NCBI GenBank assembly: GCA_902604855.1
Contig: CACLAF010000001.1
Coordinates: 1 to 64,000 of the forward strand
From: an uncultured SAR86 cluster bacterium
GTDB taxonomy: Bacteria > Pseudomonadota > Gammaproteobacteria > Magnimaribacterales > Magnimaribacteraceae
Direction: 5' to 3'
DNA length: 64,000 nucleotides
The position numbers and the translations under genes are program-made. Shown one piece after another: positions 14,485-33,535 of this stretch; positions within the stretch are counted from its first letter, which is position 1, and every line of letters starts with the position of its first letter. The notes beneath the pieces were generated by a model. The model made no database searches and had not been told where the DNA came from. It saw only the letters and a program-made list of their open reading frames with translations.

Positions 14485-14611
14485 TTTTTCTCCTTAATAT
14501 TATGAATATAAATTTATTGTAACTTTATTTTATTACCACTCACTAAATGTGGCTCAATAAATAAATTTAAATTTATAATTAATATACAATTATTTAGAAA
14601 ATGGAGAGGTT

Positions 14612-15013
14612 ATGAATCAAACAGCACTTTTAACACCAGTATTTATATTGATACTATGGACCTTTGCTATCACCGCAATTATGGCCTATGGCAGAGTAAA
14701 ATTTACAAAAGACCCGCAGGATGCGGCGCACACAAAAGATTTAAAAGGATTGATGCCTGCTTGGGTTGAGAGAACTTCAGATAACTATAATCATCTTTTT
14801 GAACAGCCCGTGGCTTTTTATGTTGTTACTTTATCAATTGCACTAATCAATAATATTGAACCTTTGATGGTTCAATTAGCATGGGCATTCGTCATAGTAA
14901 GAATAGTACATTCACTTGTTCAGCTTACTATAAATATTGTCTTACTGAGATTTGCTATTTTTGCAATTGGTTGGTTAATTATTGCCTATATGGCATTTTC
15001 CCAACTCCTGTAA
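14612..15013 (+). CDS. MAPEG family membrane protein
   Basis: ~133 aa with four hydrophobic segments; FEQPVAFYVVTLSIALI and AWAFVIVRIVHSLVQ motifs. Confidence 0.8.
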   Translation: MNQTALLTPVFILILWTFAITAIMAYGRVKFTKDPQDAAHTKDLKGLMPAWVERTSDNYNHLFEQPVAFYVVTLSIALINNIEPLMVQLAWAFVIVRIVHSLVQLTINIVLLRFAIFAIGWLIIAYMAFSQLL

Positions 15014-30574: not shown

Positions 30575-30596
30575 TTTCTCCCCTAATTTTTTTAAT

Positions 30597-31325
30597 CTAC
30601 CAATTCTCTGACCATGGTCTCAAATCTATCTCAAAGGACCATGTACTCTTCTTCTGCTTATGCAACATTAAAAAGTTTTCAGCAATACTATCTATATTGA
30701 GCTTACCATCTTCTCCTTTTGATTTTGCAAAATCAGGAAACCTAAGATTCACTTTGTCTCCATCTATAATGCCATCAATAATTACATGAGCTACATGTAT
30801 TCCCTGTGGTCCAAACTCTTTTGCAAGTCCTTGAGCTAATGATCTTTCAGCGCTCTTAGCAGCTGCAAAGGCAGTGAATGGAGGTTTAGATCTGATAGAG
30901 GCAGTTGCACCAGTAAAGAGAAGTGAACCTCCTCCGTCTAAAAGTCTTGGAATAGCCTGCTGTGAAATTAAGAAAGCTCCTTTAGCGCAGACCTCCCATA
31001 AGTCCTGAAAAAAGTCTAAATCCATTTCTAGAAAAGGTTTAGCATTATTGTTACCTGCATTATAAATTACAGATTCTAGCTTGGCCTCTGCTTCATCTAA
31101 TTGAGAAAAAATATTAAGTACGTCTTCTGGATTAGTCACATCACCGACTATTCCTTCAATAGGACCTTTTGAGACTTTTACTTTCTTAAGAGCATCCATG
31201 TTCTCTTGGCTTCTTCCACAACCAAAAACTCTATAACCCTCTTCAGCAAATTGCTTGCATAAAGCTACCCCTAAACCTTGATCGGGACCTACTCCCAAAA
31301 CCAATACAGATTTTTCTTTTCCCAT
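30597..31325 (-). CDS. short-chain dehydrogenase/reductase
   Basis: VLVLGVGPDQGLGVALCKQFAEEGYRVFGCGR, AAAKSAERSLAQGLAKEFGPQGIHV. Confidence 0.85.
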   Translation of the reverse strand: MGKEKSVLVLGVGPDQGLGVALCKQFAEEGYRVFGCGRSQENMDALKKVKVSKGPIEGIVGDVTNPEDVLNIFSQLDEAEAKLESVIYNAGNNNAKPFLEMDLDFFQDLWEVCAKGAFLISQQAIPRLLDGGGSLLFTGATASIRSKPPFTAFAAAKSAERSLAQGLAKEFGPQGIHVAHVIIDGIIDGDKVNLRFPDFAKSKGEDGKLNIDSIAENFLMLHKQKKSTWSFEIDLRPWSENW

Positions 31326-33105: not shown

Positions 33106-33206
33106 AGATAGTAGTCTAACCTATTATATCCGAGTAAAGGGTGGTAGATGAAACTTTTTGCTGCGCCCAACCAAAAATTAATTTTAAAGCCCCACCTACC
33201 ATAGAT

Positions 33207-33267
33207 AGTAAGATGTAGCTTAAATTTTGCTAGTGCAGCTAAAAATGGGTGACAGCTACATCTTACT
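33207..33267. other. hairpin with perfect 14-bp stem (agtaagatgtagct / agctacatcttact)
   Basis: Inverted repeat 33207-33220 and 33254-33267, loop 33 nt containing a second inner pairing; T-run follows on the + strand. Confidence 0.75.
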
Positions 33268-33272
33268 TTTTG

Positions 33273-33329
33273 AACTGAGCGAGTTACCTTGGAGAGGTTT
33301 TTCTGGGGAGAATTAAACGTCTCTCAGTT
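33273..33329. ncRNA. candidate structured RNA, copy 1 of a tandem pair (orientation unresolved)
   Basis: Core 33284-33324 ttaccttggagaggtttttctggggagaattaaacgtctct; outer stem aactgag/ctcagtt (33273-33279/33323-33329). Confidence 0.55.
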
Positions 33330-33335
33330 ACTTTT

Positions 33336-33399
33336 AATATCTAGATTGCTTACCTTGGAGAGGTTTTTTTCTGGGGAGAATTAAACGTCTCTAGATATT
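33336..33399. ncRNA. candidate structured RNA, copy 2 of a tandem pair (orientation unresolved)
   Basis: Core 33350-33392, identical to copy 1 except two extra T; outer stem aatatctaga/tctagatatt (33336-33345/33390-33399). Confidence 0.55.
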
Positions 33400-33535
33400 G
33401 ATTGTAATTATATACAAGTATAAATAATTTGTATAGTAGTAAAGAGAAAAATTATTAAATATATTTTTAAGTTTTTTTTTCTTTGATTTCCCTCTTTTTC
33501 ATTATTCGTCTAATATGAAATTAAAGTTTTAGGAG

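Follow-up and report, generated by a model that had tools for sequence, protein, structure and literature searches.

The question raised by this locus is what the pair of nearly identical short repeats between two divergent genes of an uncultured SAR86 bacterium might be. SAR86 bacteria are among the most abundant uncultured bacteria of the surface ocean. The window analyzed here is a stretch of 64,000 nucleotides, and the repeats lie in an intergenic gap of 430 bp (33106-33535), which has a 4HBT thioesterase gene (minus strand) on one side and a GST gene (plus strand) on the other, the latter followed by a CoA-transferase III gene, also on the plus strand. A preliminary description of the locus reported this gap, two repeat cores at 33284-33324 and 33350-33392 that differ solely by two T in a T-run, and an outer stem closing each copy (33273-33279 with 33323-33329, and 33336-33345 with 33390-33399). 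All of this is confirmed, and the outer stems contain no mismatch. The spacing from core to core is 66 nt ahead of the T-run and 68 nt beyond it. A scattered repeat of the MITE or REP type is ruled out: a search of the 1.36-Mb assembly allowing up to three mismatches recovered the two copies of the core and no others, and the RNA gene described below occupies one locus in this genome.

The repeat pair is not a chance occurrence: relatives have conserved it together with some 300 bp of surrounding sequence, and in them the repeat element always lies inside the conserved block. This block covers 33136-33440 in the window, so that the preliminary description was correct as to the exact pair and made the conserved element too small. 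The two repeated hairpins are predicted to make up the first half of a small RNA (sRNA) gene not described before, which runs for about 265 nt on the minus strand and has the following parts.

33407..33435, minus strand: predicted sigma-70 promoter, with a -35 box TATACA at 33435-33430, a 17-nt spacer and a -10 box TATAAT at 33412-33407
33136..33400, minus strand: predicted sRNA of about 265 nt, with its 5' end near 33400 and its 3' end near 33136, in the conserved block
33336..33399, minus strand: unit 1 (copy 2 of the preliminary description), a three-way junction with stems P1 33390-33399/33336-33345, P2 33380-33369 and P3 33364-33352; covariance model R1, 85.4 bits; covariation
33273..33329, minus strand: unit 2 (copy 1 of the preliminary description), folded as unit 1, with stems P1 33323-33329/33273-33279, P2 33312-33301 and P3 33298-33286; covariance model R1, 49.8 bits; covariation
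33207..33267, minus strand: SL3, a 14-bp hairpin with a conserved CACCCA loop segment; perfect 14-nt inverted repeat; covariation
33142..33201, minus strand: SL4, the terminal hairpin, with a conserved (G)GUUGGGCGCAGC internal segment, then CCCUUU (terminator-like); covariance model R2, 83.6 bits in the window's genome
33136..33138, minus strand: short U tail, UUU, read from the sequence

Each unit, in the minus-strand reading, consists of P1 and two mini-hairpins, P2 (UUCU[CCCC]AGAA) and P3 (ACCU[CUCCA]AGGU). P1 is the outer stem of the preliminary description, and in relatives it comprises 12 bp plus GUU/AAC. The 265-nt RNA has a minimum free energy of -68 kcal/mol (z -3.9), which none of 200 shuffled sequences equalled. 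Model R1, which has 64 positions and was built from ten units, matches the relatives, and its stems covary. In the alignment fitted to this model (42 distinct rows), 90.5% of cells are paired and 15 of the 24 pairs have changed on both sides (P1, 12/15); a fitted alignment favours its own structure, and for comparison none of 500 shuffles reached any of these measures, while sliding by one column left 49% of cells paired. P2 and P3 change little, though P3 reads AUCU/AGAU in L050, and UAC/GUA occurs in L047. All 15 pairs of SL4 covary, and across two SAR86 families 99.3% of its cells are paired; in SL3 the figures are 6 of 14 pairs and 93.7%. The earlier suggestion of a structured RNA with covarying closing stems is thus borne out, and the comparison of relatives establishes a modular architecture of units followed by SL3 and SL4. 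The stems turn over, and the loops are the least-changing bases, near-invariant over the two families; SL3 and SL4 hold further invariant unpaired segments.

Two kissing interactions and a small ORF were also considered and rejected. Judged by eye, pairing of the SL3 loop (AGCUGC, CACCCA) with the SL4 loop (GCAGC, UUGGG), and of CCCCAG in P2 with UUGGG in SL4, is possible in some sequences and broken without compensation elsewhere, the latter sequences including L041, L044, L046, L050 or L051. The ORF, which overlaps SL4 (L027, L028), loses its frame to indels, and also its start codon, among relatives.

Wobble pairs allow the strand to be assigned. Counted over the aligned cells, SL4 shows 79 G.U against a single A.C on the minus strand (an A.C there would be a G.U on the plus strand), and the units show 47 G.U against 15 A.C. 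Summed over the arm duplexes of SL4, pairing amounts to -228 kcal/mol on the minus strand and -122 on the plus strand. The P1 stems of the window's close relatives do not distinguish the strands; divergent units pair much better on the minus strand (-12.1 vs. -5.0 in L045, and -14.4 vs. -7.6 in L047). The wobble asymmetry and the better pairing together assign the RNA to the minus strand; the plus-strand fold UUCU[GGGG]AGAA, which had been proposed originally, is its mirror image.

This bears directly on two other explanations of the locus. The first is an RNA of the plus strand that sequesters CsrA in the manner of CsrB or RsmZ, for which it may be said that both units carry a GGA in a loop on that strand (UUGGAGA and GGGGAGA), and that CsrA is found in 29 of the 35 genomes of the window's family. 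It is very improbable, being largely refuted by the 79:1 ratio in SL4, while the conserved -10 and -35 boxes point to the minus strand and the terminators of the second family, described below, fit a minus-strand reading. The likeness to CsrB and RsmZ extends to repeated short hairpins, an invariant loop motif and the presence of CsrA, but the loop motif of the SAR86 RNA is C-rich and not GGA; multiple GGA loops on the transcribed strand were not found. The second explanation is an element acting as DNA (operator repeats, a cruciform or a mobile repeat), which would also present inverted repeats in a conserved block. We consider this the least probable account of all, since covariation that tolerates G.U occurs in three independent helices and the asymmetric wobbles refute it; in addition, assembly duplicates aside, each genome has a single locus, and neither viral contigs nor phage records contain a match.

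Transcription would start from the sRNA gene's own promoter and end at the terminal hairpin. A consensus scan gives the promoter 10/12, which alone is no more than chance would yield (mean of 1.6 in shuffles). The pattern CTATACAnA...TATAAT is near-invariant throughout the window's family, and the promoter block recurs ahead of the single-unit copies in genus g2. At the other end, the U tail has six or seven U in the relatives L030, L037 and L041; the three U of the window are too few for the terminator scan to score. From these elements we infer both ends of the sRNA and transcription itself. The promoter-like element (33405-33440) also contains a palindrome, TATACAA-N11-TTGTATA, which overlaps the -35 and -10 boxes. 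Only some relatives retain its arms, and it is a possible operator.

Within the window's family (f1), model R1 detects the sRNA in 26 of 35 genomes. Two units are present in 21 of these 26, and one true unit in genera g2 (four genomes) and g7 (one genome). A second SAR86 family (f3) carries it in 35 of 40 genomes: a looser loop pattern finds it in 6/7 genomes of g9, 8/9 of g13 and 7/8 of g17, and the SL4 model adds 14/16 of g12 (seven loci read). The RNA is therefore spread over two families. The remaining 128 genomes (families f2 and f4) gave no convincing copy, and as most genomes are incomplete these absences are soft. Weak R2 matches in f2 and f4 showed no unit at the six loci that were read; f2 also has weak R1 matches (E 0.02-0.05), at loci left unread. 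Promoter-like BLAST matches in g12 proved unrelated. Searched in 84,980 species genomes, the loop pattern occurs, with five exceptions, in genomes titled SAR86 or in gammaproteobacterial MAGs of the same order set. The five single loop matches outside SAR86 lack the unit fold, and by our estimate about four are expected by chance. A mobile or phage origin was rejected on the lack of any match to the RNA in the viral and phage collections. One double locus (G008) is an assembly duplicate, 99% identical over 3 kb including ihfA, merR and tRNA-Pro, and copies at contig ends in G032, G034 and G020 are probably strain variants. Several contigs (L090, L091 and L092, from G032 and G020) end in the sRNA promoter and share a near-identical upstream block, GGCGTAAAAAGAATTAGAATC, preceded by different genes, which could reflect strain variants or recombination at the locus.

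The gene neighbourhood differs between the two families. With INDEPENDENCE from neighbours, the sRNA of f1 sits in a pheT-ihfA-merR-tRNA-Pro(GGG) neighbourhood, and the gene downstream is mostly the thioesterase, with others in G027, G029, G024 and g7; in g2 it is a convergent gene. The f3 sRNA is flanked by a gene that resembles a dehydrogenase (its start suggests the saccharopine dehydrogenase type) and by a photolyase gene, both names being taken from the N-terminal sequence. The RNA of f3 has a single, simpler unit, formed by P1 and one loop with UUCUCCC...CUCUCC, usually with P2 and without P3; it is followed by a GC-rich hairpin and then by SL4 with a UUGGGC segment, SL4 being absent from g17. 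In g12 and most of g17 a T-run follows the GC-rich hairpin, making an intrinsic terminator in the minus reading. SL4 ends a few nucleotides ahead of the photolyase start codon. The f3 sRNA (L158-L178, L218-L222) is preceded by a conserved pair of TATAAC(C) boxes, separated by about 20 bp and followed in most by a TATAGAAT-like -10; the paired boxes resemble a site at which an activator would act on the sRNA promoter.

These neighbourhoods can be used to weigh a cis-acting leader, that is, a riboswitch or an attenuator. The preliminary description had compared the pair to tandem aptamers, a comparison that finds no support here, as the RNA runs on the minus strand, away from the GST and CaiB genes, toward a neighbour that varies and that in g2 is convergent. 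A leader would suit the position of the f3 RNA just upstream of the photolyase, with a terminator between them in g12 and g17, and the thioesterase that often lies downstream in the window's genus. Set against this, downstream genes vary among f1 species, f1 carries the same SL4 where there is no photolyase, and inspection by eye revealed no alternative pairing that could serve as an antiterminator. A constant downstream gene on the same strand, as a riboswitch leader would have, was not found over the whole distribution, although f3 does keep the photolyase. The convergent gene downstream in g2 leaves no room for a cis-acting leader, whereas an independent RNA fits all cases. A leader is accordingly rather improbable, if less so than either explanation rejected above, and an additional cis effect on the photolyase in f3 (L164, L218 and other loci) is possible. 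The conserved -35 and -10 boxes and the terminator-like ends, which are canonical in g12 and most of g17, would suit an sRNA gene. The varying or convergent neighbours and the f3 terminator are what such a gene would have, and they show, at the level of genome comparison, an RNA that is independent of its neighbours.

Rfam 15 was scanned at the gathering threshold with the window region and seven relatives, and only tRNA reached the threshold; a permissive scan of the same sequences likewise matched no family, in line with the candidate unknown RNA of the preliminary description. The next-best match near the element is to a snoRNA model (E 2.4), on other bases. The open-access library searched yielded no report of a SAR86 regulatory RNA; early work on putative small RNAs in ocean metatranscriptomes lies outside this scope, and the transcript may have been seen there and left unnamed. 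The RNA is thus a new family, with a new architecture and a likely mode of action that is already known.

What the RNA does is suggested by its loops. CUCCCC and CUCUCC are complementary to the strong Shine-Dalgarno (SD) sequences GGGGAG and GGAGAG, and for this reason the RNA most likely represses translation by masking ribosome-binding sites (RBSs). Our main reading, to which we assign a probability of roughly 0.6, is that this is a stand-alone, trans-acting sRNA gene of SAR86, the C-rich loops of which would cover the RBSs of a set of mRNAs without the help of Hfq. The working part would be the hairpin unit, in one or two copies, which displays the loops CUCCCC(AG) and CUCUCC(AA); by covering SD sites these would repress translation of the set, and doubling of the unit would provide more avidity or more targets. 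A search for Hfq (PF17209) found it in none of the 35 genomes of f1. The anti-SD action and the targets are what we infer from this complementarity, and C-rich loops match any GGAG, which makes complementarity by itself a weak argument. Moreover, the C runs lie in hairpin loops of 4-5 nt in P2 and P3, so that pairing with an mRNA must open short stems.

Conservation of the loops over two families could equally mark a binding site for a protein or a ligand. An RNA-binding protein might recognize the C-rich loops and the GUUGGGCGCAGC segment, making the RNA a sponge or a scaffold that does not act on mRNAs. Near-invariant loops on stems that are free to change, the further invariant unpaired segments of SL3 and SL4, and units in tandem, which are typical of titrating sponges, are all consistent with such a role. 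CsrA, the obvious candidate, requires a GGA in a loop, which the minus-strand RNA does not have, Hfq was not found, as described, and no candidate protein is known. We regard a protein-binding RNA as unlikely, if a little less so than a cis-acting leader.

Repression by SD masking has precedents. LhrC of Listeria has three redundant UCCC sites in loops, blocks RBSs and can dispense with Hfq (PMC4132741). The SAR86 RNA resembles it in its CU-rich loop sites and multiplied recognition sites, RBS masking being here the predicted function. LhrC is a set of five gene copies of 111-114 nt with simple stem-loops, whereas the SAR86 RNA is one gene with up to two three-way-junction units and the conserved SL3 and SL4. 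In RsaE and other C-rich-loop sRNAs of Staphylococcus, a UCCC motif is proposed to pair with SD sequences (PMC9266662, PMC4132741). The UCCC is alike, but phylum and fold differ and there is no homology. The alphaproteobacterial anti-SD sRNAs are alike in having C-rich anti-SD loops in small hairpins and in belonging to Gram-negative bacteria, a comparison made via Rfam only. They include alpha-r14/NfeR1 and, reportedly, PmaR of Agrobacterium, and the lineages concerned possess Hfq. The 6C RNA of Actinobacteria, an Rfam family, is also a stand-alone RNA with C-run loops on hairpins; the SAR86 RNA shares such loops and gives no match to it in the Rfam scan.

Duplex energies with RBSs were computed for candidate targets. 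In genus g1, AAUUCUCCCCAG of the sRNA pairs with the csrA RBS CUGGGGAGGGUU over 12 bp (-19.9 kcal/mol), more strongly than with any of 64 ORFs of the window (best -17.5, mean -8.1, sd 3.2). In g2 (G004) both partners have changed, to UUUCUCCCCAUGA and UCAUGGGGGGGAA, and 13 bp are kept; partners swapped between g2 and the rest form mostly 8-11 bp, with unit 2 of G012 reaching 13. The csrA pairing does not clearly surpass that of exchanged partners: the fraction of permutations of swapped partners that pair as well is about 0.08 in f1, where the change is effectively one event, and 0.83 in f3, for which csrA is unsupported as a target. csrA retains CUGGGGAG in incomplete genomes where the sRNA was not found. 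As a candidate predicted from sequence, csrA is the best target seen in the window's family. We consider it doubtful that in f1 the sRNA serves specifically to regulate csrA translation by base-pairing, its P2 loop having changed together with the RBS of csrA.

The best value within the window belongs to a MAPEG-family gene, whose RBS, AATGGAGAGGTTATG (14587-14614), matches the P3 loop by complementarity (-17.5 kcal/mol); this gene is a second predicted candidate target. A carboxylesterase gene has an RBS, TTAGGGGAGAAAATG (30575-30600, minus strand), with complementarity to the P2 loop at -15.4 kcal/mol. The csrA leaders themselves (L292-L296, L282, L327-L332) have in most of f1 a TAAGGT-type element, often ctgataaggt, about 35-45 nt before the start, which is possibly the csrA -10 box or a regulatory site.

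If csrA does prove to be regulated in this way, ocean bacteria lacking Hfq would use an antisense sRNA to control CsrA, a task for which other gammaproteobacteria rely on GGA sponges. More generally, SD-masking sRNAs would gain a new architecture, that of tandem three-way junctions with two C-rich loops each, and riboregulation in streamlined, seemingly Hfq-less marine bacteria becomes testable through existing metatranscriptomes.
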